DNA of 36,460 nucleotides from a virus: IMG/VR virus record IMGVR_UViG_3300033149_000738, positions 1-36,460 of that record. One strand, 5' to 3'. The translations under genes and the position numbers were made by a program. The notes beneath the pieces were generated by a model. That model was not told where the DNA came from. It made no database searches and saw nothing but the letters and a program-made list of their open reading frames with translations. Of this stretch, positions 6,301 through 26,508 are shown one piece after another (the first letter of the stretch is position 1; every line of letters begins with the position of its first letter).

Positions 6301-8195
6301 CTCAAACAATCGCAGGCGGTAACACATTAACAATTAACGGTACAACAAATGAAGTTGAAGCAGTAGTTTCAGCTACAGATACATTAACAATTGGGTTACC
6401 AAGTGATGTTACAATTGCTGCATCATTAACAGTTACAACTGGTTTAGCAGCAAACGGTGGTATTACAGTAGATTCTACTGCATTTATTGTAGCAGATAGC
6501 ACAGGTAATGTTACCACAGCTGGTACATTAGATGTAGCAGGTGTTGCTTCACTAGATGGTGGTATTGACGTCGATGGCGCATTTACAGTAGCAGATGCAA
6601 CAGGCGCCATTGCAACCACAGGTACATTAACTGTAACAAGTGATACTACTACATTATCACACCTTGTTATTACCGAAGAGAACTTGGCAGCCACAGCACT
6701 TAGCGCAGCAACTTCATATGAAATTGTTACAACTGGCACAACGGACTTTACCGCAATTGGTGCAGCAGATAGCTTACCAGGTACAATCTTTACAGCATCC
6801 GGTGCAGGTACAGGCACAGGTACTGCTAAACTAGCTTCAACTATTGATGCCGGCGGCAATCGAATTGCTGATGTTACAGATCCAGTTCTTGCACAAGACG
6901 CAGCAACTAAGAGTTATGTTGATAACGCATCAAGCGCAGGCTGGGACATATTTGATGGTACAACTACTGAAACAGTTGGTGGTGGTAATACATTAACAGT
7001 AACTGGCGTAACAAATGAGATTACTGCGGTAGTTACAGCAACAGATACATTAACAATTGGGTTACCAGATGATGTTACAATTGCAGGTATTTTAACTGTA
7101 AGTGGACAAGCAAACATTGATAACGTTACTATTAACGGTAACGATATTACAGCTACTTCAGGAGAGCTTACTATTAATGAAGCTGGCGCGGATATTAACT
7201 TCCGCGTTGAAGGCGATACAGATGTTAACTTGTTATTTGTTGATGCAGGAACAGACAGTGTTAACATTGGTACTGCTACAGCATTAACAGATGTTACATT
7301 CCAAGTTGCAACCACAGACGCAATGATAGGACCAAGTGGACTTACAGCAGAACGTCCAGCTGTTGGTATTGCAGGCATGTTCCGTTATAACACATCAATT
7401 GACGAATATGAATACTATGATGGTGTTTCATGGACAGGTTTTGGTGAAACGTTTACAGTTATTGCAAGTGAAGCATTTACAGGTACTGGCGCACAAACAG
7501 TATATACGTTAGCAACCACACAAACAACAGCATCATGTATCGTTAGCATAAACGGTGTTATTCAGCTTCCAACTACAGCTTACGCCGTATCTGGAACAAC
7601 ATTAACGTTTACTGAAGCACCAGCAAATACAGATGATATTGAAGTACGTGAAATAACAACTACCACTTCAATCGTATCAGTAACAAATGGTAATGCTGAG
7701 TTAACAGCAGTTGGTTCAGACTTTGAACTTACAGGCAACGTTGTTCCAACAGTTAATAACACATATGATATAGGTTCAGGATCATTTAAACTTGCAACTA
7801 TATACGCAACTACATTCAGCGGTGAGGCTACTTCAGCTCAGTACGCTGATTTGGCGGAAATGTACGAAGCAGACGGCGAAATTGCACCAGGTACAGTAGT
7901 ATGTTTTGGTGGTACAGCTGAAGTTACAACATGTAACACAGACGCTGATGCAAAGGTAGCAGGCATTGTTTCAACCAACCCAGCTTACTTGATGAACAGC
8001 GAGCTAGATGGTGTTGCAGTAGCGTTACGTGGACGAGTACCATGTAAGGTAAGTGGCAGCATTAAGAAGGGTGACATGTTAGTAAGCGATGGAAATGGCG
8101 GAGCGCGAGCAGAAGCCAGTCCAACACTTGGTACAGTAATTGCTAAGGCCTTAGAAGATTCAGAAGGCGATGCAGTAATTGAAGTAGTAGTGTAA
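3387..8195 (+). CDS. Giant repetitive tail-fibre protein
   Basis: 1602 residues. Residues 63-130 form an N-terminal cap (EDPILRLASQQ, DIGFIGERG, VAFVWDESADAF). The shaft carries seven copies of a unit like LASLDGGIDVDGAFTVAD, three copies of a block ending DTLTIGLPSDVTI, and two copies of YEIVTxGTTDFTxIGAA. Around residue 1316 are AERP/RYN and INGVIQLPTTAYAVSG modules. The last 130 residues are a cap (YADLAEMYEADGEIAPGTVV, AGIVSTNPAYLMNSE, GRVPCKVSGSIKKGDMLV). Composition is Thr/Gly/Ala/Asp-rich with very few Cys, as in trimeric fibres. It probably makes the long host-contacting fibre; no Peptidase S74 chaperone motif is evident. It has its own late promoter and terminator. Confidence 0.8.
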   Translation: MAITRIKNNQITDSTIIASAKIATTSVTAGLLENDLTYGSNLTVSGNLTVNGTTHTVNTTNTTIEDPILRLASQQAGSGALDIGFIGERGTDTNVAFVWDESADAFVAGFTADADSSTTVTFSSKADLQVAGLNTTGTITANALTVTPGATNVVILNATGLASLDGGIDVDGAFSVADGTGNILTTGTLGAGNTTVGTLDATGLASLDGGIDVDGIFTVADGTGNVSTTGTLGAGNTLITGTLDVTALASLDGGIDVDAAFSVANGTGNIDTTGTLDVDGISTLGVINATGLASLDGGIDVDAAFTVADTTGNMITTGTIDTGAATLDSATVSNLTDNRIIIAGTAGVLEDDGNLTFDGTTFEVGTAFDVISASGNTSIGGTLDATGLSSLDGGIAVNGSFTVADTTGNIATTGTLTVTSDTTTLSNLVITEEITTAGSFSVATTYEIVTAGTTDFTLIGAANSDVGTIFTASGAGTGTGTAKLASVIDAGDNRITNVADPTLAQDAATMNYVDTNLALLAFDMTDGSNTEEIAGGATITFNGTANEITTLVSATDTLTIGLPSDVTIGNNLTVTGNMGAATIGVSGISTMGVINASGLASLDGGIDVDGAFTVLDTSGNVSTTGTFNADGLSTLGAVTIDNSSTLNMGGNVVTNAGDGVANTDLVTKQQLDAAQAGILVKEQCNVATDAALPAVTAAGADVGKTLTADAVGILTVDGVATVLADRILVKDQVNQVDNGIYEVTTEGTAGVAFILTRATDYDGNPTAEVQEGTFTFIEDGTANIKSGWVLLDDANFTAGVANVDVALNELVFAQFQGLPAYVGGTNIDISGQTINVSPQGAASGLDADLLDGQHGAYYLDWTNTTNKPDPTITLGGDASGSLTMTDLAGGTLTVVIADDSHNHIIANVDGLQTALDGKLNDTSDTVTGTLTIDAGGTILWATAPTAGSHLTNRDYVDGLYNTGWDLYDGTTTQTIAGGNTLTINGTTNEVEAVVSATDTLTIGLPSDVTIAASLTVTTGLAANGGITVDSTAFIVADSTGNVTTAGTLDVAGVASLDGGIDVDGAFTVADATGAIATTGTLTVTSDTTTLSHLVITEENLAATALSAATSYEIVTTGTTDFTAIGAADSLPGTIFTASGAGTGTGTAKLASTIDAGGNRIADVTDPVLAQDAATKSYVDNASSAGWDIFDGTTTETVGGGNTLTVTGVTNEITAVVTATDTLTIGLPDDVTIAGILTVSGQANIDNVTINGNDITATSGELTINEAGADINFRVEGDTDVNLLFVDAGTDSVNIGTATALTDVTFQVATTDAMIGPSGLTAERPAVGIAGMFRYNTSIDEYEYYDGVSWTGFGETFTVIASEAFTGTGAQTVYTLATTQTTASCIVSINGVIQLPTTAYAVSGTTLTFTEAPANTDDIEVREITTTTSIVSVTNGNAELTAVGSDFELTGNVVPTVNNTYDIGSGSFKLATIYATTFSGEATSAQYADLAEMYEADGEIAPGTVVCFGGTAEVTTCNTDADAKVAGIVSTNPAYLMNSELDGVAVALRGRVPCKVSGSIKKGDMLVSDGNGGARAEASPTLGTVIAKALEDSEGDAVIEVVV
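4613..4844 (+). repeat. Direct repeat A, copy 1 (fibre shaft)
   Basis: This block recurs at 6608-6839 with a constant offset of 1995 bp. Within it 4613-4664 (52 nt) and 4785-4844 (60 nt) are identical between copies, and the DNA between them has diverged. The offset is a multiple of three, so recombination between copies would keep the frame. Confidence 0.85.
5038..5091 (+). repeat. Direct repeat B, copy 1 (fibre shaft)
   Basis: These 54 nt are identical to 6364-6417 (offset 1326 bp, in frame) and encode the SATDTLTIGLPSDVTI block. A diverged third copy lies around 7035-7085. Confidence 0.85.
6364..6417 (+). repeat. Direct repeat B, copy 2 (fibre shaft)
   Basis: Identical over 54 nt to 5038-5091. 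See copy 1. Confidence 0.85.
6608..6839 (+). repeat. Direct repeat A, copy 2 (fibre shaft)
   Basis: Second copy of 4613-4844, with identical 52-nt and 60-nt ends at 6608-6659 and 6780-6839. Protein similarity continues downstream (AQDAATKSYVD versus AQDAATMNYVD). Confidence 0.85.
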
Positions 8196-9827: not shown

Positions 9828-10279
9828 TCTGTGTACACATCTTTTAACGTATTAATACGTTTAAAAATATCATCAATCTTTAATGTGGCCCAGAAGCCTG
9901 GGTGTAATGGCTTAGGAATAATGTCTGAGTCTATCCATGCGTACCCGACATGTTCGTGGTTTAGTATTGGTGTAAATTCTTTTTCGACAATACAATAGAA
10001 TGTGTGATAGCTAAAGAAGTCACCATCCGCTGTAAACTTTTCAATTGGAATTAACTTTGTAGTCTCGGGCATGAAGCCCATTTCTTCTGTACATTCCCGC
10101 TCGATAGCTTCAAGTAACGTTTCGCCTTTCTCAATTTTGCCGCCTGGTAAACCCCAATGCCCGTGATACTTCTTATCATCGCGCATTAAGTAAAGGTGTC
10201 TTTTTGTATCTTGTGAATAAAACCAAATACCAACAGCGTTAATTTTACTAGTGTTATGCATTATAGAACTATACCCCAT
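9824..10279 (-). CDS. Nudix hydrolase
   Basis: 151 residues. Residues 47-69 form a complete Nudix box, Gx5Ex7RExxEExGF, with RE at 61-62 and EE at 65-66; these bind the metal and cleave nucleoside diphosphate linkages. The preceding HWGLPGG is the usual strand into the box. A substrate such as 8-oxo-dGTP, another damaged nucleotide or an NDP-sugar cannot be told from sequence. The start at 10279 has GGAGG only 3 nt away and overlaps the upstream gene by 19 nt. ATG 10261 (TAATG overlap) would give 145 residues and is equally possible. It is the last gene of the gp14-gp15 late unit. Confidence 0.9.
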   Translation of the reverse strand: MGYSSIMHNTSKINAVGIWFYSQDTKRHLYLMRDDKKYHGHWGLPGGKIEKGETLLEAIERECTEEMGFMPETTKLIPIEKFTADGDFFSYHTFYCIVEKEFTPILNHEHVGYAWIDSDIIPKPLHPGFWATLKIDDIFKRINTLKDVYTD

Positions 10280-11649
10280 TTACCTCCAGGATATATTCCT
10301 TCATAACTTCGCTTCCATGCACCATCCTTGTATTTAAATTGTACTGCGGTTGTTAAGTTTGCAACATAAGATGTGTCGCCCTCAACTTGATCACCAGCAT
10401 TAAACACAACTACCCAGTCGCTACCATTATATTCAATAACATCATTCTTTGTAGCAGCTAATGGAATGCCTGTTCCTTGCCACGCATCTGCGACAGCAGC
10501 ATTGTCAACATTACCTATGTCGTCTATTAGCAAATATCGTTGTCCGTTAGCCGCAGCAGGTAACCCATTGTCTGGACCACTGTCGAGTGGATCAATTACA
10601 GCATCTACAGGATCCATTGTATTACTTGGCAATGTATCAACATCAACTGTAAATAATAATGTTCCTTGTTCTGCAGGGTGGTATGCAACTGTGCCGATAA
10701 TATCAAGCTCACCCTCTACGTCAGACTCAATACGGATTTGCGAAATGCCATCATTTAATGCACCGTATTCATCTATAACTGCTCTCCAGGATATGTCATT
10801 ATCTTCTGGGTTTGGCAGTGCTGTGATATCACCACCGTCGCCTGGCTCTTCAACCGGCAATATACGTAATTCGTTGCCAAGTAATAAAACTTGATAACCG
10901 TGTGGAGTAATTCTAACCCTTGTGCCAAGCAATATGTTGTCGCTGTTAATAGCGTCTACGTATGAACCAGCATCGTCGTATATACTAGCAATAACTTTAT
11001 GTATAACACCTTCTTTAGTAACACGAGCTGGAGGACTAATCCAAATTGGTACATTGAATTTTAATGTTGCTATGTCTATACTGTCGTCGTTGTTTGGTAC
11101 TTCACGTGAACTCCAATTTACATCATCGAGTTCAACCACACTTAAACTAGTCCAATCTAAGTAATTGTCCGTAGACTGTATTTCAAGTGATGGGTTAAAC
11201 AGTGTTAAAATTTGTTCCATTAGTTGGAGTTTCGTGTGTGTGTTCGAAGTCCATACATCTAATTTTAATCCAAGTTTATAAGGTACTGGCATCTGACGTT
11301 CAAGGTTAAATGCATTGCCCTGTGTTGTTTCGTATGTTTGCGATCCTTCGTCCCACTCACGCTGCCTAACTTGTTTTCTGTCTACGAAGTAAGGTTCTTG
11401 TATACGTGGACGATCATATTTCAATGAGTCAATGTAAAAGGACATTGTCGGAGCGCAAGGAATATTGTTAGCTGAGTTTTCCTGTAGGATAACTTGGGCT
11501 TGTCTGCTTGCATCACCATAACGCACAGGAACGCGAATAAGCGTTATATTGCCTAGGTCATCTATGCCACCCTCTACTTCAAAGTTGCTAAACATTCTAG
11601 CGAACTGTAAAAGGAAACGTCTTATTTGTTGATCATAAAAATACTGCAT
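10261..11649 (-). CDS. 15: Tail sheath stabiliser and completion protein, gp15-like, with C-terminal extension
   Basis: 462 residues against 272 in T4. The N-terminus MQYFYDQQIRRFLLQFARMF followed by NITLIRVPVRYG matches the start of T4 gp15 (GYFYNSSFRR...FIRVPITYA). PYKLGLKLDVWTS and LMEQILTLFNPSLEI (about 120-155) match its second conserved region, and IWISPPARV (about 206-214) ends the gp15 core. gp15 caps the sheath and tube and joins the tail to the neck. The extra ~240 residues contain a RYLLIDDIG...AWQG section and a VIEYNGSDWVVVFNAG segment, which looks like a decoration module. The upstream gp14 gene ends 2 nt away. Confidence 0.88.
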   Translation of the reverse strand: MQYFYDQQIRRFLLQFARMFSNFEVEGGIDDLGNITLIRVPVRYGDASRQAQVILQENSANNIPCAPTMSFYIDSLKYDRPRIQEPYFVDRKQVRQREWDEGSQTYETTQGNAFNLERQMPVPYKLGLKLDVWTSNTHTKLQLMEQILTLFNPSLEIQSTDNYLDWTSLSVVELDDVNWSSREVPNNDDSIDIATLKFNVPIWISPPARVTKEGVIHKVIASIYDDAGSYVDAINSDNILLGTRVRITPHGYQVLLLGNELRILPVEEPGDGGDITALPNPEDNDISWRAVIDEYGALNDGISQIRIESDVEGELDIIGTVAYHPAEQGTLLFTVDVDTLPSNTMDPVDAVIDPLDSGPDNGLPAAANGQRYLLIDDIGNVDNAAVADAWQGTGIPLAATKNDVIEYNGSDWVVVFNAGDQVEGDTSYVANLTTAVQFKYKDGAWKRSYEGIYPGGKWGIVL

Positions 11650-11651
11650 GA

Positions 11652-12863
11652 TTAATTATCTTTCTTTGGGTCTAGTAAATCACTAAGTGATTGTCTTGAC
11701 GGAATATCACCGCGGTCCTCTGTACTAATTGTATCTGTATTGTTGAAGAATCTGCTACGTTGTGTATCTCCATCTAAGTACAAGTCAGTTCTAATGCTAT
11801 CTTCTACTTTAATCCAATTGTTACCGTTGTATCTAAATAGTCTGTTTGGTGCATAGTCTAAGCGTAGCACATAATCACCAATTGTTGGATTAGATGGGAA
11901 TGATGTACCTGGAGTAACAGGCCAGCCGTTTGGTGCTAGTCCATCGCCATCAAGGTAACCTAATGTTAACTCACCTTGTGTGTTTGTAGAAGCTGTTCCC
12001 GCATCAGCAGTAATAGTATCAAAGTCAGCCGTTAATAACGGACTAGCACTATCAACTGGCAAACCGTATCTGTTAACCGGCCTCCCTTCTTCATCGTACT
12101 CAACTATGTAAAAGTTACTTATGTCGTAACCACTCAGCGGTACTTCTATTTCTGCTTGTGTAAGGATAGCATCGTTAAGGGCAAGGTTCTTAGAGCATTG
12201 CGACATGTAGTCTGCAAGTGTTCCGCTGCCGTTGCCATCGCCATCATCTCCGTCAATGCCACCCTCGGTATCAATGTAGTTGCTAAGAATATCATCGTAC
12301 TCTTGCGATGCAACAAGCGGCACAGCTTTCACGCGCCATAAGTGAGGCAACCATGTTTGGCTGAAGCCTTCGCTTGCAAACGAAGCATCATTAATTACAT
12401 AGAATTTAGGAAGTGCTTTTGGTATTGCATCGTTTAGCGGATGATAATCTTTTAAGTTTGGTATTTCAAGTACATCACCGTTCATTAGCTTGCGACCAAT
12501 ATGATCGATCATATCATTGTAATGGAATGTGATAAACAGTGTATCGTTTTGAAGGAATAAACCGAATTGACTTAGATCAAAGTCAATATCTTGTGTGCGA
12601 TACACGCCACGCATTGTGTAGATATCATCTTCGTATTCGCGATTCCTGTTTTCAAGCAAAAGCAAATCTTCTATAAACAGAGGATTAGTTTCGTTGTACG
12701 TTGGAAGTGTAGCATCGCCAGATGGTTCTGCAGTGGTCTTAGGACCCAGGTACTTGTGTATGTGAATATCTAATCCACCCACAGTGTATTGTTCGCGAAT
12801 TATGTTATCGAGAAACCTAAAATCATCTGTTTTTTCTTGACGCCACAAGCTAAGTCTTGGCAT
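11652..12863 (-). CDS. 14: Neck protein gp14-like, with C-terminal extension
   Basis: 403 residues against 256 in T4. Residues about 70-190 (YEDDIYTMRGVY, DLSQFGLFLQNDTLFITFHY, NGDVLEIPNL, FYVINDAS, WLPHLWRVKAVPL) follow the pattern of T4-like neck proteins, and the gene precedes gp15 as in T4. gp14 forms the lower collar between portal and tail. The Gly/Asp-rich stretch EGGIDGDDGDGNGSG near residue 200 is a linker. The C-terminal part has GDYVLRLDYAPNRLFRYNGN followed by NWIKV, a short module like those in gp15, the sheath and the fibres. AGGA precedes the ATG, and a late promoter lies 21 nt upstream. Confidence 0.75.
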   Translation of the reverse strand: MPRLSLWRQEKTDDFRFLDNIIREQYTVGGLDIHIHKYLGPKTTAEPSGDATLPTYNETNPLFIEDLLLLENRNREYEDDIYTMRGVYRTQDIDFDLSQFGLFLQNDTLFITFHYNDMIDHIGRKLMNGDVLEIPNLKDYHPLNDAIPKALPKFYVINDASFASEGFSQTWLPHLWRVKAVPLVASQEYDDILSNYIDTEGGIDGDDGDGNGSGTLADYMSQCSKNLALNDAILTQAEIEVPLSGYDISNFYIVEYDEEGRPVNRYGLPVDSASPLLTADFDTITADAGTASTNTQGELTLGYLDGDGLAPNGWPVTPGTSFPSNPTIGDYVLRLDYAPNRLFRYNGNNWIKVEDSIRTDLYLDGDTQRSRFFNNTDTISTEDRGDIPSRQSLSDLLDPKKDN

Positions 12864-12883
12864 ATTATATTCCTGCTTTGATG

Positions 12884-12891
12884 TATTTATG
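12884..12891 (-). promoter_or_regulatory. T4-type late promoter (CATAAATA) for gp14-gp15-Nudix
   Basis: One mismatch to consensus on the minus strand. Predicted start near 12878 gives a 15-nt leader with AGGA before the gp14 ATG. It lies just beyond the end of the small-gene operon. Confidence 0.75.
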
Positions 12892-12915: not shown

Positions 12916-13191
12916 TTAGACGAATTTACTCATTATAGTCCCTAAGCAGGCTTGATCCATGTGTTCGTCATTGTACACAGAAACCTTAGTGAGGCGTGAA
13001 TACACGATTCTAGAATCGTCTTTGCCGTACGTGATTGTAGCTAGGTAATTGTCGTTCTCAACTACAATTTTATAATAGTCGTTTCGCTTCCGAGTCTCCG
13101 TCCAGGCTCGCGGCCAATACGGATCAAGTTTCTCATGTGTAACGATAAGATTTTTAAGAGTACAGTATGTTATAAATTCAGGTAGTTTCAT
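12916..13191 (-). CDS. Small tandem paralogue 5 (YCTLK family), unknown
   Basis: 91 residues. The N-terminal helix MKLPEFITYCTLKNLIVTHE is nearly the same as in the two genes upstream. A beta-rich part follows (YYKIVVENDNYLATITYG, SRIVYSRL), then a short C-terminal helix (LGTIMSKFV). It starts by ATGA overlap with the previous gene, showing translational coupling. It is the last member of an array of five. I do not recognise the family; no enzyme motif or membrane segment is visible. Confidence 0.72.
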   Translation of the reverse strand: MKLPEFITYCTLKNLIVTHEKLDPYWPRAWTETRKRNDYYKIVVENDNYLATITYGKDDSRIVYSRLTKVSVYNDEHMDQACLGTIMSKFV

Positions 13192-13463
13192 GATGGCGCA
13201 AACGCTTTAAGGATGTCGCCCAAGTTGGGCTGAGTTACTATTTTTGTACCAACTCTGCCACCGTGATCAAAAAGACTGCAATACACAATAGCGGCTTGGT
13301 CTTGAATTGTTGCATATCTAATAGTTGCAGAATAACCACGTGCCTGTAGTTCTATTTTAAAGTATTTTTCTGCGTCAGGATCCCACTTCGGAACTTCGAT
13401 TTCCGTATGCACCCGTATGTAATCTTTGAGTGTACAATATGTTATGAATTCAAGTAATTTCAT
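13188..13463 (-). CDS. Small tandem paralogue 4 (YCTLK family), unknown
   Basis: 91 residues beginning MKLLEFITYCTLKDYIRVHT, then YFKIELQARGYSATIRYA and AAIVYCSLFDHGG, ending in LGDILKAFAPS. The helix, three strands and helix pattern matches its neighbours. It starts by TAATG overlap with the previous gene and ends by ATGA overlap with the next. Its start-region DNA (TACAATATGTTATGAATTCA) closely resembles that of the next copy (TACAGTATGTTATAAATTCA), indicating recent duplication. Confidence 0.72.
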   Translation of the reverse strand: MKLLEFITYCTLKDYIRVHTEIEVPKWDPDAEKYFKIELQARGYSATIRYATIQDQAAIVYCSLFDHGGRVGTKIVTQPNLGDILKAFAPS

Positions 13464-13720
13464 TATATAAAGTATTCCATCATTCGTTTAAGTGAGATGT
13501 GCCTGTGAAGTTTTTGCAGTGATGCATCTTCATGATACAAATTTTCGTTCATATGACATGTAACAACCCTAGCACGAGCGTCTTTCATTCTGTACACAAT
13601 AGTTACTCTATGATAATCGTTGGTAATAACAATGCGATAATTGGTCATCTTCAGACTTTTATCATGTGTAGCAACCATGTCTTTCAGCGTACAGTATGAT
13701 ATGAATTTTAAAAGGTTCAT
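13463..13720 (-). CDS. Small tandem paralogue 3 (YCTLK family), unknown
   Basis: 85 residues beginning MNLLKFISYCTLKDMVATHD, then YRIVITNDYHRVTIVYRMKD and ARVVTCHM, ending in SLKRMMEYFI. It has the same fold pattern as the two genes after it, but the loop after the third strand is longer and more charged (HEDASLQKLHRH). ATGA overlap couples it to the gene before it. Function unknown. Confidence 0.72.
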   Translation of the reverse strand: MNLLKFISYCTLKDMVATHDKSLKMTNYRIVITNDYHRVTIVYRMKDARARVVTCHMNENLYHEDASLQKLHRHISLKRMMEYFI

Positions 13721-14022
13721 ATGCGGCTCACAAAGTGACTACACAAGTCGCTAACACTAGCGTTCTTAATGAACACCTTGTCGACATCATTCTTAGCATA
13801 TTTGAAGTCCGTACCGCTAAAGAAGATATCAGCGTATACCAGTGCGAGCTTGTTGCCTTCGGCCCTGTAGATAATTTTAGCATGTTGCCCACCAACAAAA
13901 ACTTCAACGGAACAAACTTTATGTTTTTCATTTGAATCGTAAATTAGATTCTGATATAGATGGCCTTCATTCCTGACCATACCCTTCAGCTTCCAAAACG
14001 ATAACATATCAGCGAACTTCAT
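13717..14022 (-). CDS. Small tandem paralogue 2, diverged, unknown
   Basis: 101 residues. The N-terminus MKFADMLSFWKLKGMV keeps the spacing of MKLLEFITYCTLKDYI but not the YCT residues. SVEVFVGGQHAKIIYRAEGN and LALVYADIF align with the ATIxY and IVYxxL strands of the other copies. The C-terminal helix is ASVSDLCSHFVSRI. It overlaps both neighbours by ATGA. It is a more diverged copy of the same unit. Confidence 0.7.
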   Translation of the reverse strand: MKFADMLSFWKLKGMVRNEGHLYQNLIYDSNEKHKVCSVEVFVGGQHAKIIYRAEGNKLALVYADIFFSGTDFKYAKNDVDKVFIKNASVSDLCSHFVSRI

Positions 14023-14291
14023 TGTATAGCCTCTCTTAGTTCTTTAACTGTTTGGCATTCAATTTGTTGGATATCTTCAGTGTACACATCAATTTCAACA
14101 TGTGCCCCTTTATAAAGTACAATTCGATCACCGTACTTTCTATAATTAAATGAGATTGTTTTATTACCCGACGTAGCTTTAAAATACCAGAGCACTGATT
14201 TTATTTTGTTATGTGAGGTAAAAGTAAATGACCGATTGGTATCAACCTCCCCGTTTAAAATATACCACGCCATTATTTGTTTAAGATTCAT
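14019..14291 (-). CDS. Small tandem paralogue 1, most diverged, unknown
   Basis: 90 residues beginning MNLKQIMAWYILNGEV. The strands VLWYFKATSGNKTISFNYRK and DRIVLYKGAHVEI line up with the strand pattern of the array, and TVKELREAIQ forms the final helix. Similarity is by pattern more than identity, so membership is inferred from size, fold pattern and position. Its ATG directly follows the TGA of the gene before it. Confidence 0.65.
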   Translation of the reverse strand: MNLKQIMAWYILNGEVDTNRSFTFTSHNKIKSVLWYFKATSGNKTISFNYRKYGDRIVLYKGAHVEIDVYTEDIQQIECQTVKELREAIQ

Positions 14292-14471
14292 TCACTGACC
14301 TAATAGTTTCTTGGCTTTATATGATGCGAGCCTGTTAGTGTTACGGATATCGTTTTCAGCGTCCCTGCGGCCTTCGCTTGCAGGTTTGTACAGTATAACA
14401 AATAACCACTTTGGTAGTGACAATTTGTATATGTCTACTAATATACTTGGCAACCAAAATAGTGCTTTCAT
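14292..14471 (-). CDS. Small protein with hydrophobic N-terminus, unknown
   Basis: 59 residues, with a strong ribosome site (AGGAG) upstream of the ATG at 14471. It starts by TAATG overlap with the gene before it, and its TGA abuts the ATG of the next. MKALFWLPSILVDIYKLSLP followed by KWLFVILYKP is hydrophobic and could sit in or on the membrane. The C-terminal half is polar (EGRRDAENDIRNTNRLASYK). Tight coupling on both sides supports it as real. Function unknown. Confidence 0.65.
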   Translation of the reverse strand: MKALFWLPSILVDIYKLSLPKWLFVILYKPASEGRRDAENDIRNTNRLASYKAKKLLGQ

Positions 14472-14794
14472 TATTTTACTCCTGGAAACTTATAACTGTT
14501 AGCTTTTAAGATTGTCAACATCCAGACAACATCTTCATCGTCAGTCTTGGCAATCTCACTATCAATAAAATCATGTGCTACAATATCTTTAATCTGTTCT
14601 GCAAACTCGCCGTGGGCTGAATTAAAAGTCCACCGCTCAAACATGTAGTTGAAACCTTTTTGTACAACTAACATCACGTTAATGTCTCCACGAATGAAAG
14701 AATCAAAGCAATAGTTGTCACCGCCCCTGTAGGTAAACGGACCAGCTAAGCCAGTCCTCCACCACGTAAAATATTGTTCGCCTACCTTAATCAT
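14471..14794 (-). CDS. Small early protein, unknown
   Basis: 107 residues, Trp/Phe/Tyr-rich at the N-terminus (YFTWWRTGLAGPFTYRGGDN), then beta segments (INVMLVVQKGFNYMFERW) and an acidic helical tail (TDDEDVVWMLTILKA). It overlaps the previous gene by 8 nt and the next by 1 nt. No recognised domain. It belongs to the leftward early operon. Confidence 0.65.
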   Translation of the reverse strand: MIKVGEQYFTWWRTGLAGPFTYRGGDNYCFDSFIRGDINVMLVVQKGFNYMFERWTFNSAHGEFAEQIKDIVAHDFIDSEIAKTDDEDVVWMLTILKANSYKFPGVK

Positions 14795-15044
14795 TATTTA
14801 ATACCTTGTTTAGTTGGTACAGGACATCATCTAGCGCAAGCTCTTTGCCAGCGTAAGAATCATAATCACTCGCTTGCATATACCCTGGAGGGTTGGCAGC
14901 CATCTTGTGCTCGCATTTTACTTCCTTGCGTAATTTTTCTACCTTCTCACGCAGCTCAGTGAATGCTTTTTCGTAATGCTCGGCCTTTGCTTTATACAAG
15001 GCTTCTCCAGATGCATACATGCTCATTGCAAACTGTTTCTTCAT
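14787..15044 (-). CDS. Small coiled-coil protein, unknown
   Basis: 85 residues. ATG 15044 is chosen because AAGGA lies 8 nt upstream; an upstream TTG in frame is less likely. Residues 12-50 (EALYKAKAEHYEKAFTELRE, then KVEKLRKEV) form a highly charged coiled coil. After the coil come a short CEHK segment, a YDSYAGKELALDDVLYQLNK helix and an acidic end. It may be a small DNA- or protein-binding factor, but nothing identifies it. Confidence 0.65.
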   Translation of the reverse strand: MKKQFAMSMYASGEALYKAKAEHYEKAFTELREKVEKLRKEVKCEHKMAANPPGYMQASDYDSYAGKELALDDVLYQLNKVLNND

Positions 15045-15045
15045 T

Positions 15046-15363
15046 TTAAAATTCCTTATTTTCAAATGCGGTTTTAGCCAAGTCCCAATCTAAGCTGACA
15101 CCAAATGTTAAATTGTTGTGCTTAATAGCAAAGCGTCCGTGGAACTTAATAATCGAACGCATGTCGTCCATAAAGTCGTCGCTTTCCCAACACATTGCGT
15201 CAACTACGTTACGTTCAATGTCTGCCATACCTTCTAATACTTTTTTAACTTGTTCGTCCTCGCCGTGCATTGTTGCTGAGATTAGTTCAATTATGTGATC
15301 TGAATCAAGCGTTACACAGAACGGTTCGTTTTTATCTGTTCCTACTGCAAATAAGTCTGACAT
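15046..15363 (-). CDS. First gene of leftward early operon, unknown
   Basis: 105 residues, with GGAGA 5-6 nt before the ATG and a sigma70 promoter 30-57 nt upstream. The sequence is acidic and mixed alpha/beta (DSDHIIELISATMHGEDEQV, SLDWDLAKTAFENKEF). No known motif. As first gene behind a strong early-type promoter it should be among the earliest and most abundant products, which is typical of host-takeover proteins; that role is inference. Confidence 0.7.
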   Translation of the reverse strand: MSDLFAVGTDKNEPFCVTLDSDHIIELISATMHGEDEQVKKVLEGMADIERNVVDAMCWESDDFMDDMRSIIKFHGRFAIKHNNLTFGVSLDWDLAKTAFENKEF

Positions 15364-15392: not shown

Positions 15393-15420
15393 AGTATAGC
15401 AAATACAGCCAAAAGGTCAA
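15393..15420 (-). promoter_or_regulatory. Sigma70-type promoter, leftward
   Basis: On the minus strand TTGACC (15420-15415), a 16-nt spacer and TATACT (15398-15393). The -35 lies in AAGGTTGACCTTTTG (15424-15410), the same 15-mer as in the rightward promoter. On the plus strand this spot reads AGGTCAACCTTTTGACCT, an inverted repeat that could be an operator. Confidence 0.82.
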
Positions 15421-15447
15421 CCTTTTGACCTATTTAAAGTTCGTAAC

Positions 15448-15641: not shown

Positions 15642-15670
15642 TTGACCTTTTGAACAGCAGAAACTATAAT
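15642..15670 (+). promoter_or_regulatory. Sigma70-type promoter, rightward
   Basis: TTGACC (15642-15647), a 17-nt spacer and TATAAT (15665-15670). It shares AAGGTTGACCTTTTG (15638-15652) with the leftward promoter. It drives the gene at 15702 and probably the whole run to 20489. Confidence 0.88.
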
Positions 15671-15701: not shown

Positions 15702-15944
15702 ATGTCAGATGTAGATAAATTAATGAAGCGGGTTGCAGATCAAGAAGCACCTATAACAGCACGTAAAATTGTTGAAGCTTTAAAAGCAGATAGAGCGTTA
15801 GCATTAACAGTGCTTCAGAGCCCAGACCCACTTCGCGCCGCTATTTTAGAATCAGGCGTAATCCCAGATCCCGCAAGCATGGATGGTAATCATTATTACC
15901 ATGCTATTATTGCTGAACTTAAAAAACTAAAGGGTGGTGTATAA
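15702..15944 (+). CDS. First gene of rightward early operon, unknown
   Basis: 80 residues with CAGGAGCA before the ATG. It is predicted helical (DKLMKRVADQEAPITARKIV, EALKADRALALTVLQ), ending YHAIIAELKKLKGGV. Size and pattern would suit a small regulator or a host-protein binder, but no DNA-binding motif is clear. It is the first product behind a strong promoter. Confidence 0.7.
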   Translation: MSDVDKLMKRVADQEAPITARKIVEALKADRALALTVLQSPDPLRAAILESGVIPDPASMDGNHYYHAIIAELKKLKGGV

Positions 15945-15945
15945 C

Positions 15946-17142
15946 ATGGCAAAAGCAAAAGCAAAAGTAAACCGCGGACGAGCAACAAACCCAGCGCCAC
16001 TTGTTAGTGGAGCAAAGGCATTAAGAATTGCATTTGACACCGCAAAGTACATGGGCTATGAGCCAATATGGGAAGACGTTGACATAACAGAAGACAACCG
16101 CCAGAGCCATTTAATGGGCGCCTTCAACTGGTACAACTATAGCTTTGGTAGCAAAGATGCTCTGGGACTCCTAGTTGAGTACTTAACTATTAATAAGCGC
16201 AAGGACGAAGCAAAGCAAGTCAAACGCGCAGGCGACAACGTTGTCGCGAATGCTATTTGTTACCTGGCTCGCATGACAATGATGGGCTGGGAACTAAGCG
16301 AAACTGAAACAAATCAAGTTGAAGGTGCGATTAAAAGAGCTATTGCATCTATTCCAGCTAAACTAGTTGTTGACAATGATGCCGACGACACTTCAAAAGT
16401 TAAAAAGTTTAACATCCAGGAACGTATGCGCGAAAAACTTGTTGAAGCAGGTGGCGAGCTTGAAGGCATGCTAGATGATTTTATTGCAGACGGCGCAAAA
16501 GCCCGTCACAAGTTCCAACCAATTGTTATATTAAAGACTGCAAATGTTCTGCCAGCGCATGTTGGCGATGAGATTAAGTACTGGGAGGCAGTTAAAGCAG
16601 AATTTAAAGCAGCCCACCTAGGCAAGGACAAAGACCTTCAGGAAGGTTACAGCAACTTTACTAAAATTCAACTCCGTAACTTGATTAAGTTCAGCGATTT
16701 GGTTATTGCAGACTATCACGGTTATGTAGCATTTAAGAAATCAACAAAGAAAGTTCGCAAGCGTAAAGTTAAGACGCCAACAGAACTTGCACGTAAGTTG
16801 AAGTTCATGCCATCATTTATAGAACACAATCTTACAAGTATTAAGCCTGCTAAGATTGTTGGAGCCAAAGAGTTGTTTGCATTTGATACTAAGAAGCGCA
16901 AGCTGATGTATTTCATTGCAGACGAGTACTCCGGTACGCTTACTATTAAGAACAACATGATTGATGGCTTTGATGCAGCTAAGTCAGTACAGAAGACTAT
17001 CCGCAAGCCCAAGGAACAGTTGAAGGCACTAATGGCAGCGAGTCGTCCTAACACTCGCAAGCTGTTCGCAAATACCAAATCAGTTGAGACTAAGATGAGT
17101 GGACGGTTCAATCCTAACATTGTTATATTGAAGGTGTTCTAA
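15946..17142 (+). CDS. 398-residue protein with Lys-rich ends, unknown
   Basis: ATG 15946 is chosen over an upstream GTG because it follows the previous TAA directly and has AGGG upstream. The first 12 residues (MAKAKAKVNRGR) are strongly basic, suggesting nucleic-acid contact. A mid segment (LVVDNDADDTSKVKKFNIQE) links two helical halves, and a second basic patch (KKSTKKVRKRKVKTPTELAR) lies near residue 280. The C-terminus ends in FNPNIVILKVF. It may be a DNA- or RNA-binding protein found in marine T4-like phages; the family is not recognised with confidence. Confidence 0.7.
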   Translation: MAKAKAKVNRGRATNPAPLVSGAKALRIAFDTAKYMGYEPIWEDVDITEDNRQSHLMGAFNWYNYSFGSKDALGLLVEYLTINKRKDEAKQVKRAGDNVVANAICYLARMTMMGWELSETETNQVEGAIKRAIASIPAKLVVDNDADDTSKVKKFNIQERMREKLVEAGGELEGMLDDFIADGAKARHKFQPIVILKTANVLPAHVGDEIKYWEAVKAEFKAAHLGKDKDLQEGYSNFTKIQLRNLIKFSDLVIADYHGYVAFKKSTKKVRKRKVKTPTELARKLKFMPSFIEHNLTSIKPAKIVGAKELFAFDTKKRKLMYFIADEYSGTLTIKNNMIDGFDAAKSVQKTIRKPKEQLKALMAASRPNTRKLFANTKSVETKMSGRFNPNIVILKVF

Positions 17143-21283: not shown

Positions 21284-21946
21284 ATGATTAAGTATGATTT
21301 TAAGAAATTGCCTAAGGCAATTTCGAAGTATTTTGATTTGACTATTGTAGTAGCCGTTACCGGCTCACTACTTTCAATTGTTGGTGGTGTTATGATAGTT
21401 CAAATGGCGTTTGCTGGTATTACCCCGGCAATTGTGCCAATTGAATTGGTACCATATAACGTTCATGACTTTGAATTTGAGGAGAGTAAATATCCTGGAA
21501 TCAAAATTCCGTTAAGTGTTAGTAAAGATTATAACAAAGAACTTCGATGCATGGCCAGAAACCTTTATTTTGAATCCCGAGACCAGGATTTACAAGGTCG
21601 CATTGCAGTTGGACTTGTTACATTAAATCGTGTAAACAACGATAACTTTCCTAATTCAGTATGTGAAGTGGTCTGGCAGAAACGTTGGAGCAAACGATAT
21701 AGCAAATGGGTTGCACAGTTTTCGTGGACGCTAGACGGCAAGTCTGATACACCTATTGAAAAAGAAGCCTATGCTGAAGCAGTAAGATTAGCAACGGCAT
21801 TATTTGCAGGTGGTATTACTGATTTCACAAAAGGTGCTGACCACTATCACGCAGATTATGTTAACCCTTCCTGGGCAAAGAAACTTATCTTAGTCACTAA
21901 AATAGATGATCATATCTTTTATTTAGAACCACCCTTCAAAAAATAA
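21284..21946 (+). CDS. Membrane-anchored cell wall hydrolase (SleB/CwlJ family)
   Basis: 220 residues. Residues about 18-45 (LTIVVAVTGSLLSIVGGVMI) form one N-terminal membrane segment, so the enzyme is probably exported with an uncleaved anchor. Residues 88-150 (RCMARNLYFESRDQDLQGRI, VGLVTLNRV, VCEVVWQKRW, QFSW) match the Hydrolase_2 (SleB) domain. E97 is the conserved catalytic acid. GADHYHADYVNPSW is the usual second conserved region. It should cleave peptidoglycan and is the best endolysin candidate; a signal-anchor-release mechanism is possible. GAGGA precedes the ATG. Confidence 0.88.
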   Translation: MIKYDFKKLPKAISKYFDLTIVVAVTGSLLSIVGGVMIVQMAFAGITPAIVPIELVPYNVHDFEFEESKYPGIKIPLSVSKDYNKELRCMARNLYFESRDQDLQGRIAVGLVTLNRVNNDNFPNSVCEVVWQKRWSKRYSKWVAQFSWTLDGKSDTPIEKEAYAEAVRLATALFAGGITDFTKGADHYHADYVNPSWAKKLILVTKIDDHIFYLEPPFKK

Positions 21947-22279: not shown

Positions 22280-22801
22280 ATGTCAGATTTAATGATTGAT
22301 ATCGAGACACTTGATGTAACACCCACATCAACCATACTAACTATTGGAGCTCAAGGCTTCGACCCATTTAGTACTAAGTTCACTAAAGTAACTTATTACA
22401 AACGCTTAACAATTGACTCACAAAATGAACGTACAGTAAACGACGATACCGTTGAATGGTGGGGCAAACAGGCAGCCGACGCACAAGAAGAAGCACTTGG
22501 TGATGGCGATGACCGGGTTGAAATTAAAATAGCTCTTGAAGAACTAGCTAAGATAGCATGGAAACATAGTCGTATTTGGGCCAATGGTACCACGTTTGAT
22601 ATGGTAATACTTGAAGATGCGATGAAACAGTACGGCGTTACTGTGCCGTGGAAGTATTGGCAGGTAATGGATGCACGTACTATATACAAGATTGCAAAGT
22701 CGTCTAAGCTAGGCAACAACCATAACGCATTAGCTGATTGTGTTAATCAAATTGATTTGTTACAAACAGCATTGAAAAAGTTAGGCATTAATAAGTTCTA
22801 A
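22280..22801 (+). CDS. dexA: DexA-like 3'-5' exonuclease (DEDDh)
   Basis: 173 residues (T4 DexA has 227). MIDIETLD gives D7 and E9, IWANGTTFD gives D107, and NNHNALADC gives H148 and D153: a complete DEDDh active site binding two metals. The spacing and NGTTFD motif match phage DexA and Rv2179c-like nucleases. It should degrade single-stranded DNA or RNA from the 3' end. It has GAGG before the ATG and is probably cotranscribed with the small gene before it. It converges with the zinc-protein gene, overlapping by 4 bp. Confidence 0.88.
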   Translation: MSDLMIDIETLDVTPTSTILTIGAQGFDPFSTKFTKVTYYKRLTIDSQNERTVNDDTVEWWGKQAADAQEEALGDGDDRVEIKIALEELAKIAWKHSRIWANGTTFDMVILEDAMKQYGVTVPWKYWQVMDARTIYKIAKSSKLGNNHNALADCVNQIDLLQTALKKLGINKF

Positions 22802-23249: not shown

Positions 23250-23292
23250 GATGTAACAGAAAAGTTACAATACATTTATAGGAGATTTGATA

Positions 23293-26200
23293 ATGGCACT
23301 TGTTTCACCAGGCGTTGAAGTTACGATTATAGACGAAAGTCAGTACTCTTCAGCAGGACAGAACACAGTACCGTACATCTTGTTAGCCACAGCGGAAAAT
23401 AAACTTAACCCAATTGGCACAGGAATTGCACCAGGTACACTAGCGTCATCAGTAGATGATGTTTATTTAATTACTAGCCAGCGTGAACTTGTTAACACGT
23501 TTGGTAATCCAACGTTTTATAAGACTGCAGGCGGAAACGCACTTCACGGTTACGAATTAAACGAATATGGATTGATGGCAGCTTACTCAGTACTAGGCGC
23601 CACTAACAGAGCATATATTCAGCGCGTTGACGTTGACTTATCACAACTTGAAGCATCACTTGTTCGTCCTAAGGGCGCAGCAAATAACGGCGCTTACTGG
23701 TTTGATTTAGCTGAATCATCATATGGCTTGTTTGCATGGAACGCAACACAGAATACATTTAACACAATTGACCCAATTCTTATTACAGATGATGCAGACT
23801 TAGATTCACCAGGCGGTGTTCCACTAGACAGCATAGGATCAATTAACTCTTATGCAATTGTAACAACTAATACTAGTAATCCAATTTATTGGAAGAACAG
23901 TGCTAATGAATGGGTACTAATTGGTTCTGAGGAATGGAAGGGAAGCATTGCTACAGTAATCAGCAATACACCAATTGCATTAACTCTTACCGAAACTATT
24001 GTTATTAATGGCACCTCTGTGCCACTTACTGGCGCAGCTGATCTTGACGCACTAGTAAATGATATTAATAACGTAACTCCTGTTGTAGGTGTTACATCTG
24101 CCAATGTTAATGGTAGACTTGAAATTTACACAGATTCTACCGCAGTTGGCTTAGGCGGCGGCAATTTAACTCTAGTTGAAGGCACAGGCACTTTACTAGC
24201 TGATGTTGGACTTACAGCAGGCGAATTTTATAGCCCAGTTGTAGAACATGCGAGCCATGTAAATGTTCCACGTTGGAGAACAACAGATACAGAACCTCGT
24301 CCAAGTGGTTCTGTTTGGCAGAAGACTACTTCAGTTAATGAAGGCGCAGATATTGTAGTTAAACGCTATGATACAGTAACAGATTCATTTGTTGTACAGT
24401 CTGCTCCATTATATGAAAACGATCAAACAGCTAATAAATTCTTAGATCCAGGCACTGGCGGCAAATCAATTGCTGGCGGCGCAACTTATGTCCAATATGA
24501 TGTAACTGAAGATGACACAGGCACATTTAAAATATTTAATCGTGCAGTTGGCGAAACTTCAATTACAGGTACTACAGCAGCAACTTTTGCAGGTACTGAG
24601 ACATTTACAATTGAAGCAAGTGCTACTAACAGCGATACATTATCTGCACCAGTACTTGTTGACTTAGCTGGCGAAACTACTACAGCAGGCATGGCAAGTA
24701 AAATTATTGCAGCAAACATTCCAAATGTTACAGCAAGTGTTACCGCAGGTGGATTTATAACTATTACACATAGCGGCGGTGGTGTTATTGCTATTACAGA
24801 TACAGGCGGCGCTATTGCTGCCACTGGTATCACTGACAGCTTAATTAGTGTTCGCACAAATGCAGCCGGACAGTTACTTTTAAGTAACTGGAACAACGGT
24901 GAATTTTATACTGCTGATATTTCAACACCAGGACAAGATCCATTAACTGGTACACGTTGGTACTATCCAGCTATTGATGAAGTTGATATTATGATTCATG
25001 AAGGTAACGAATGGGTTGGTTATAGAACTATTACAAGCGATCTTCGCGGACACAACTTATCGTTAACAGATGCAGCAGGTCCACTTGTTTCGGCAACGGC
25101 ACCTGAATTCCAATCAGATGGCTCTACAGCACTTGCAAAAGGCGATTTGTGGATTGATACAAGCGATTTAGAAAATTATCCAACTATTCGAAGATGGCAA
25201 GAAGATGCAAGTGCCGTTCTTGGATGGGTGCTTATTGATAATGCAGATCAAACATCAACAGACGGTGTTCTATTTGCTGACGCACGTTGGGACATTGATG
25301 GCACATCAGATCCTATTACAGACGACATGACACTAATTACTGATTTGTTAACTAGTAGTTGGACTGACCCAGACGCACCTGATCCAGCTTTATACCCAGA
25401 TGGTATGATACTATGGAATACACGACGTGGCGGTTACAATGTTAAAGAATTCCGCGTTAACTATTTTAATGCTGGCGACTTCAACTTAGATGATTGGATA
25501 TTAGCAGGCGGCACTGAAACAAATACATGGGTAACAGTATCAGGACTTAAAGAAGATGGAAGTGCAAACTTCGGTCGTTTAGCTCAACGTGCATTAGTTG
25601 TTAAGGCAATGAAAGCAGCAATTGATACTAACTCAGAGATACGTGAAGAGCAACGTCAGTTTAATATTATGGCAGCACCAGGATATCCAGAACTTATTCC
25701 TAATATGGTTGCATTAAATAATGAACGTGCTAACACTGCATTCGTTATTGGTGATTCACCAATACGTTTGGAAAACAGTGGCAATGCAATTGCAGAATGG
25801 GCATCTAACGGTGACGGACTAGGTGTTCCAACTAACGATGGCTTAGCATCAAATGATGAATATATGGGCGTTTTCTATCCATCCGGTAGAACAAACGACT
25901 TGTCAGGTACATCAATTATTGTTCCACCAAGTCACATGATGTTACGTACAATTATACATAGCGATGAGCAATCATATCCGTGGCTAGCACCAGCTGGTAT
26001 TAGACGTGGACAGGTTGATAACGTTAATGCAATTGGTTATGTTGATGCACAAACTGGTGAATTCCAGCAAATGTCAACACGCCAGGGTGTACGTGACGTA
26101 TTGTACACTAACAATGTTAACGCAATTACATTTATACCAGGCGCAGGCATTGTTAACTACGGTAACAAGACTACTAAGGCAGGTTCAGCACTTGATCGTA

Positions 26201-26508
26201 TCAATGTATCACGTTTAGTTTCACATATTCGTGTACAAGCTGACTCACTTAGCAAGCAATTCGTATTTGAGCCAAATGATAAATTAACACGCGATGAAAT
26301 TAAGGGACAGATGGAACGTCTACTTAATGACTTAATTGCAAAACGTGGTATCTATGACTATGTGGTAGTATGTGACGAAAGTAACAATACTCCAGTACGT
26401 ATTGACCGAAACGAACTTTGGGTTGATATCGCAATAGAGCCAGTTAAAGCAGGCGAGTTTATTTACGTACCAGTACGTATTAAAAATACAGGTGAAATTA
26501 GCGGTTAA
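23293..26508 (+). CDS. 18: Tail sheath protein gp18, oversized
   Basis: 1071 residues against 659 in T4. ATG 23293 is chosen (AGGAG 8 nt upstream) over the TTG at 23287. MALVSPGVEVTIIDESQYSS is the typical sheath N-terminus. The last 160 residues (QGVRDVLYTNNVNAITFIPG, RLVSHIRVQADSLSKQFVFE, DYVVVCDESNNTP) are the C-terminal domain whose strands link subunits. Residues about 200-640 are an extra region with two flagellin-hook-IN-like units (IVINGTSVPLTGAADLDALV; FTIEASATNSDTLSAP...ASVTAG) and WVLIGS-type short modules. This part should face outward and not touch the contraction core. A terminator follows. Confidence 0.93.
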   Translation: MALVSPGVEVTIIDESQYSSAGQNTVPYILLATAENKLNPIGTGIAPGTLASSVDDVYLITSQRELVNTFGNPTFYKTAGGNALHGYELNEYGLMAAYSVLGATNRAYIQRVDVDLSQLEASLVRPKGAANNGAYWFDLAESSYGLFAWNATQNTFNTIDPILITDDADLDSPGGVPLDSIGSINSYAIVTTNTSNPIYWKNSANEWVLIGSEEWKGSIATVISNTPIALTLTETIVINGTSVPLTGAADLDALVNDINNVTPVVGVTSANVNGRLEIYTDSTAVGLGGGNLTLVEGTGTLLADVGLTAGEFYSPVVEHASHVNVPRWRTTDTEPRPSGSVWQKTTSVNEGADIVVKRYDTVTDSFVVQSAPLYENDQTANKFLDPGTGGKSIAGGATYVQYDVTEDDTGTFKIFNRAVGETSITGTTAATFAGTETFTIEASATNSDTLSAPVLVDLAGETTTAGMASKIIAANIPNVTASVTAGGFITITHSGGGVIAITDTGGAIAATGITDSLISVRTNAAGQLLLSNWNNGEFYTADISTPGQDPLTGTRWYYPAIDEVDIMIHEGNEWVGYRTITSDLRGHNLSLTDAAGPLVSATAPEFQSDGSTALAKGDLWIDTSDLENYPTIRRWQEDASAVLGWVLIDNADQTSTDGVLFADARWDIDGTSDPITDDMTLITDLLTSSWTDPDAPDPALYPDGMILWNTRRGGYNVKEFRVNYFNAGDFNLDDWILAGGTETNTWVTVSGLKEDGSANFGRLAQRALVVKAMKAAIDTNSEIREEQRQFNIMAAPGYPELIPNMVALNNERANTAFVIGDSPIRLENSGNAIAEWASNGDGLGVPTNDGLASNDEYMGVFYPSGRTNDLSGTSIIVPPSHMMLRTIIHSDEQSYPWLAPAGIRRGQVDNVNAIGYVDAQTGEFQQMSTRQGVRDVLYTNNVNAITFIPGAGIVNYGNKTTKAGSALDRINVSRLVSHIRVQADSLSKQFVFEPNDKLTRDEIKGQMERLLNDLIAKRGIYDYVVVCDESNNTPVRIDRNELWVDIAIEPVKAGEFIYVPVRIKNTGEISG

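Follow-up and report, generated by a model that had tools for sequence, protein, structure and literature searches.

Gene content and location of the array

The window, that is, the whole stretch of DNA that was analysed, is a virus record of 36,460 bases. On its minus strand lie five overlapping genes of 85-101 codons (A to E, positions 12916-14291), which overlap by 4, 1, 4 and 4 nt, with gene E abutting gene F, an arrangement already recognised in the initial annotation. The five are at the end of a minus-strand run (I-H-G-F-E-D-C-B-A) between the genes of a 403-aa structural protein and a phrog_11903 protein; this run is a 2.4-kb island situated between divergent structural transcription units. 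The features of the region are as follows, with L numbers designating loci of related viruses.

10261-11649, minus strand: tail sheath stabiliser of the T4 gp15 family (PF16724, E 1.7e-28)
11652-12863, minus strand: virion structural protein, 403 aa (phrog_11591); conserved left border of the island
12883-12891, minus strand: T4-type late promoter element CATAAATAC, separating the array from the structural gene
12916-13191, minus strand: gene A, 91 aa, A-type family member (A-type orthologues in L001, L003 and L009)
13188-13463, minus strand: gene B, 91 aa, family member (orthologue L001:1-180, 51% identity)
13463-13720, minus strand: gene C, 85 aa, family member (net charge +6.0)
13717-14022, minus strand: gene D, 101 aa, of the D-type, the most widespread subgroup (clade support 100/100)
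14019-14291, minus strand: gene E, 90 aa, most diverged family member (topology as in B)
14292-14471, minus strand: gene F, 59 aa, non-family (orthologues in L003, L009 and L014)
14471-14794, minus strand: gene G, 107 aa, non-family (orthologue in L003)
14787-15065, minus strand: gene H, 92 aa, non-family (phrog_28401, no assigned function, E 3e-6 over 26 aa)
15046-15363, minus strand: gene I, 105 aa, first in the operon (orthologue in L009; Shine-Dalgarno sequence AAAGGAG)
15393-15420, minus strand: sigma70-like island promoter motif, TTGACC-16-TATACT (recurs in the same place in L003, L007 and L009)
15642-15670, plus strand: divergent twin promoter motif of the opposite transcription unit, TTGACC-17-TATAAT
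15934-17142, plus strand: phrog_11903 protein, 402 aa, function not assigned; conserved right border of the island

The virus is a jumbo T4-like myovirus, with a terminase that matches T4-type phages (50-54% identity to its counterparts in the jumbo myoviruses PA5oct, Phosso and Atu_ph07), a large tail sheath protein (23287-26508) and a tail tube protein. No near-identical phage record was found by megablast with the first 25 kb of the window. Between the tail and connector genes are encoded a cell-wall hydrolase (21284-21946, PF07486) and a 3'-5' exoribonuclease-like protein (22280-22801, PF16473).

A family of paralogous proteins

Genes A, B and C are obvious paralogues, and D and E belong to the same family. 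The initial annotation had grouped all five together, and shuffle z-scores, hold-out profiles and relatives in other viruses place their homology far above chance. Local shuffle z-scores were 17 for A-B, 15 for A-C, 11 for B-C and 6 for D-B; those of gene E against its neighbouring genes were at most 3, unconvincing from the window alone. Genes A, B and C still share a 63-nt DNA repeat (68-71%) at their starts, and divergence climbs along the array towards its promoter-proximal end (E), both as previously noticed.

Repeated rounds of profile searching, across loci retrieved around the adjacent structural gene, yielded 30 family ORFs, all of which occupy the array position within those loci. 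A hold-out profile built without D-type members recovers gene D of the window (E 3e-9). The corresponding profile without E-type members recovers E-type proteins from two other viruses (about 3e-7), the window's own E scoring just 0.4. Membership of the latter follows from a bridging relative to which it is 33-34% identical (L009:6860-7117, tree support 97/95), together with its predicted fold. In profile-profile comparisons, the A-B-C group matched the E-type at 5e-9 and the D-type at 8e-9; the D-type matched the E-type at just 8.6e-4 over 19 columns.

The description of the family as an unrecognised one, outside known housekeeping families, is borne out by the absence of any significant match in Pfam, NCBIfam, PDB or PADLOC, the best profile values of members being 0.0058 (Pfam), 0.058 (NCBIfam) and 0.01 (PADLOC). 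PHROGs gave a few marginal single-member matches, the best (5.6e-4, in 1 of 29 members) to a family without assigned function. Lone weak matches to Ntox50 (0.0058), JetB (0.01) and Card1 (4.6) were discarded as chance. A tblastn search of B against 50,697 phage records returned one chance match (E 8), and a pattern search of genome contigs returned 11 matches, none of them confirmed. The family profile found no member in PA5oct, Atu_ph07, Phosso, RaK2, XacN1, XaC1 or Vibrio 2.275; a match in Salicola SCTP-2 (E 0.013) was rejected because it contains three internal stops. Very distant members may have escaped these searches. Within the databases searched, there was neither a sequence match nor a significant fold match to a known inhibitor, anti-CRISPR protein or antitoxin. 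As far as the searched libraries go, the family is a new one; the arrangement of its genes is of a known kind.

Age and divergence of the copies

In the family tree, the D-type (support 100/100), A-type (93/98) and E-type (92/94) groups each span several viruses, and each copy in the window is nearest to a counterpart in another virus (33-51% identity) rather than to its own paralogues, the closest pair of which is A-B (42%). Thus, the duplications are old. The tandem growth that the initial annotation had read from the array does not hold here: recent tandem expansion was rejected, since copies are closer across viruses than within them. Present differences between viruses consist of gain, loss and order of copies, the order being E-D-C-B-A in the window versus B-C-X-E-A in L001.

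The structural gene of the window is 92% identical to that of L001, versus 42-51% for A, B and C. Unusually fast evolution specific to the array was rejected, because F, G and I, island genes outside the family, have diverged just as far: they are 55%, 49% and 30% identical to their counterparts, in viruses with adjacent structural genes that are 87%, 87% and 77% identical. Where dS could be estimated, dN/dS was 0.15-0.35 for the array and 0.06-0.07 for the structural gene, with no sign of positive selection (dN/dS not above 1, dS being near saturation). The divergence of F, G and I and these ratios point to relaxed or faster evolution of the entire island under purifying selection. A more specific hint of an arms race comes from gene C and its orthologue (L001:177-455), which are 46-48% identical and differ by 12 net charges (+6.0 versus -6.2); the charge of the structural, gp15 and Nudix proteins flanking the array barely differs.

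Predicted fold

AlphaFold2 models of B and E (mean pLDDT 93.4 and 93.6, respectively), the most different members tested, have the same predicted order of elements, a helix at residues 3-12, five strands and a helix at residues 81-88 (alpha-beta5-alpha), although the two proteins are only 7-8% identical in alignments. The expectation of one fold for the family therefore fits this check; as the alignments behind both models contain other paralogues, the agreement is supportive rather than fully independent proof. Conservation among paralogues is strongest in the N-terminal helix. Since M1 and Y50 are the only residues conserved in at least 90% of members, and there is no conserved set of polar residues, each member (10-12 kDa) is most likely a binding protein and not an enzyme.

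Foldseek searches of the PDB (B model) and of viral models (B and E models) returned nothing at E ≤0.001. A second look with VIA-align gave best Z scores of 5.9 for B and 6.9 for E, the latter above a background of about 5-6; both, being below 8, were treated as a common arrangement. Among solved structures, the best match of the E model is that to the TriTu immunity protein (7zhm_C, Z 6.9 over 72 residues, 3.0 A), a protein absent from the 50 best structure matches of the B model. AcrID1 (6exp_B, 61 residues) scored at background level with both models (Z 4.5 for B and 4.6 for E), and the family profiles had no match to its sequence up to E 10 when compared with all PDB chains, 6exp included.

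Promoters and timing of expression

Both divergent sigma70-like promoters carry an identical -35 element, GGTTGACCTTTTG. The -35 box of the island promoter sits within the near-palindrome AAAAGGTTGACCTTTT; at 15407-15430, GGTCAAAAGGTTGACC and AAAAGGTTGACCTTTT are inverted repeats that overlap each other and include this box, possibly serving as an operator or forming a stem-loop at the promoter. In the genome of a 344-kb relative, the full sigma70-like motif occurs six times: two occurrences are at the island locus and the other four are upstream of runs of small non-structural or unannotated genes, possibly representing an early or middle regulon. By eye, the runs headed by these four GGTTGACCTTTT...TATAAT promoters (L115-L118) include QueC-like and QueE-type-radical-SAM-like genes, as well as phosphoribosyltransferase-like and AAA-ATPase-like genes.

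The late promoter described for T4-like cyanophages is NATAAATA (PMC2984593). The late heptamer ATAAATA has nine occurrences in the window, all of them 12-97 nt ahead of a gene start; the sole one on the minus strand (12890) is between gene A and the structural gene. The heptamer is present within 120 nt upstream of the structural gene in 43 of 47 relatives (chance about 0.02 each) and on the sense strand in none of eight islands. In L003, the late promoter (7254-7260) is separated from the structural gene (8001) by an inserted NUMOD3-containing (homing-endonuclease-like) gene (L003:7283-8008), so that the NUMOD3 gene now occupies the late-promoter position. L077 and L080, like L003, have no ATAAATA at the structural gene, and coding sequence similar to the NUMOD3 gene is found directly upstream of it.

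The suggestion that these are early genes accords with the motifs, an early-type promoter being upstream of the island and a separate late promoter downstream of it. With a sigma70-like promoter of its own and an end that precedes the late promoter, the array is probably expressed early or in the middle of infection, apart from the late structural gene; the promoter motifs, as motif classes only, agree with separate transcription from the late structural genes.

The accessory island in related viruses

In more distant relatives (L013, L016, L018, L022, L039, L042, L054 and L060), the two border genes adjoin without the island, being separated by 80-370 bp or by one short gene, which identifies the run in the window as an inserted island. 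Copy-number change, anticipated by the initial annotation, is evident among related viruses, which have from one to at least five family copies at the locus: five in the window and L009, at least five in L001 (where the contig end cuts the locus), three each in L003, L007 and L008, two in L005, and one each in L010 and L014. In the two longest relatives (344 kb and 293 kb), every family copy is at this one locus. Family genes overlap by 4 or 1 nt at 14 of 18 junctions.

Both the position between conserved structural genes (the gp15-family and 403-aa genes on one side, the phrog_11903 and then the sheath gene on the other) and the variable content of the island, in family copies as well as in their neighbours, are those of a T4-type hyperplastic region. 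Homing-type endonuclease genes are in or beside the island in L003 and L009, that of L009 (L009:5009-5458) being an HNH endonuclease gene inside it. The gene F protein has a hydrophobic N-terminal half and a conserved end (RLAxYKxKKxLG), and its gene adjoins the family in L003, L009 and L014. In L003, the A-type copy (L003:6970-7206) stops early, at 78 aa, and is followed in another frame by sequence like the C-terminus of the family, which may reflect decay of the gene or a misassembly. The island of another relative encodes MORN-like repeats (DGPAxxxANGxxxWYQNGKxHR; L096:3655-4008), for which Pfam support is weak.

Possible functions of the array

The small size of the proteins, their lack of catalytic residues, the early-type promoter, the island location, the variation in subsets and the change of surface suggest host-directed binding proteins, each with one target, made from an early or middle operon of an accessory island; we give this reading about an even chance. 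The array would then be the promoter-distal half of a translationally coupled operon in a hyperplastic region, in which five copies retain one scaffold, the conserved N-terminal helix and a strand with the near-invariant Tyr50, and the surface is varied copy by copy so that each might bind, block or redirect a different host protein. The proteins would act early in infection, as host-takeover or anti-defence inhibitors, and copies would be gained, lost and reordered as the viruses change hosts. The initial annotation had proposed an arms race with variable host targets, of which part stands: one family with one predicted fold, variable copy number and an early-type promoter are in its favour, whereas the array is not growing at present, its divergence is not specific to it, and its dN/dS, about 0.2-0.3, is not above 1. 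An arms race is nevertheless plausible.

A narrower proposal, possible but on the doubtful side, is that the array constitutes an anti-defence library maintained by selection from diverse host immune systems, each paralogue neutralising a different defence effector or toxin in the manner of AcrID1 or of an antitoxin or immunity protein. Small size, the early-type promoter, variable copy number and the island position all fit, as does the TriTu immunity protein as best solved-structure match of the E model; the phage antitoxin KreA is reported to be TriTu-like (PMC12487901). Several early AcrID1 homologues are close together in SIRV viruses (PMC11065993). Yet a Z score below 8 may reflect a common arrangement, TriTu does not recur among the 50 best matches of B, proteins with other inhibitor folds (Ivy, UGI, AcrID1) reach similar scores, as do unrelated ones (Mediator, CapZ), and neither sequence nor fold gives a significant match to any inhibitor. 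A further precedent is the amplification of anti-defence genes in phages, aided by a homing endonuclease (PMC13096335), genes of the homing type being present in or beside this island in L003 and L009. Only tentatively, the family might be an undescribed class of early jumbo-phage inhibitors, in which an alpha-beta5-alpha scaffold has been diversified in tandem so that each copy counters a different defence or toxin; if so, it would provide a ready-made library of new anti-defence proteins. Co-translated paralogues might instead join through the N-terminal helix into one multi-subunit complex, of which gene overlaps and conservation of that helix are to be expected, but viruses with a single copy (L010 and L014) and the differing subsets and orders speak against a fixed stoichiometry and make a hetero-oligomer unlikely.

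Drift in a tolerant insertion site, with an old duplicated cassette of a dispensable protein diverging and decaying, would account for divergence on a par with that of other island genes and for the early stop and displaced C-terminus-like sequence of the L003 A copy; it is improbable in view of dN/dS values of 0.15-0.29, reading frames that are intact and coupled in nearly all copies, and subgroup motifs kept across viruses. Very unlikely is a role as accessory virion or neck/tail proteins functionally tied to the adjoining structural gene: the array is directly upstream of, and in the same direction as, that gene and the gp15 sheath stabiliser gene, but the structural gene is preceded by a conserved late promoter separate from the island, the array has no late-promoter motifs, and PA5oct, RaK2, Atu_ph07 and others have the structural genes and no family member.

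The family is recognisable by profile, promoter and position, so that further members could be gathered from jumbo phages for direct screening. Should they prove to be inhibitors, comparison of single-copy with five-copy relatives would reveal how a panel of host-directed proteins is built from one scaffold. The succession of twin sigma70-like promoter, island and late promoter provides a simple search rule for early accessory islands embedded among the late structural genes of phages like this one.

Comparison with known systems

In the hyperplastic region between g15 and g18 of cyanomyoviruses (PMC2984593), as in the window, a variable set of small genes interrupts a conserved series of structural genes; in the window the insertion has the gp15-family gene and the adjoining 403-aa gene on one side and the tail sheath gene on the other. 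Late promoters of the NATAAATA type on structural genes are common to T4-type hyperplastic regions and the window. The g15-g18 position was called unique to cyanophages in the same review (PMC2984593). The window differs in belonging to a jumbo genome and in having an island that is self-contained, with a promoter of its own and an array of paralogues, whereas the cyanomyovirus insert consists of host-derived metabolic genes.

Clusters of AcrID1 genes in SIRV rudiviruses (PMC11065993) are similarly composed of strongly diverged small alpha/beta paralogues in variable copy number, and several of the homologues are preceded by a conserved early regulatory sequence (PMC11065993). The SIRV genes are described as mostly single, in contrast to the one overlapping operon of the window, and AcrID1 and the window family have no detected sequence similarity and weak fold similarity (6exp, Z 4.5-4.6). 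TriTu and KreA (PMC12487901) are toxin-neutralising binding proteins, and the TriTu match of the E model extends over 72 of 87-90 residues, but at a Z score of only 6.9 and with no sequence relation; no partner toxin gene was recognised in the window or its island. Arrays of more than 30 similar genes in jumbo phages, attributed to duplication (review PMC13282480, citing Hua et al. 2017), comprise highly similar copies as described there, unlike the old copies of the window, which are 20-42% identical.
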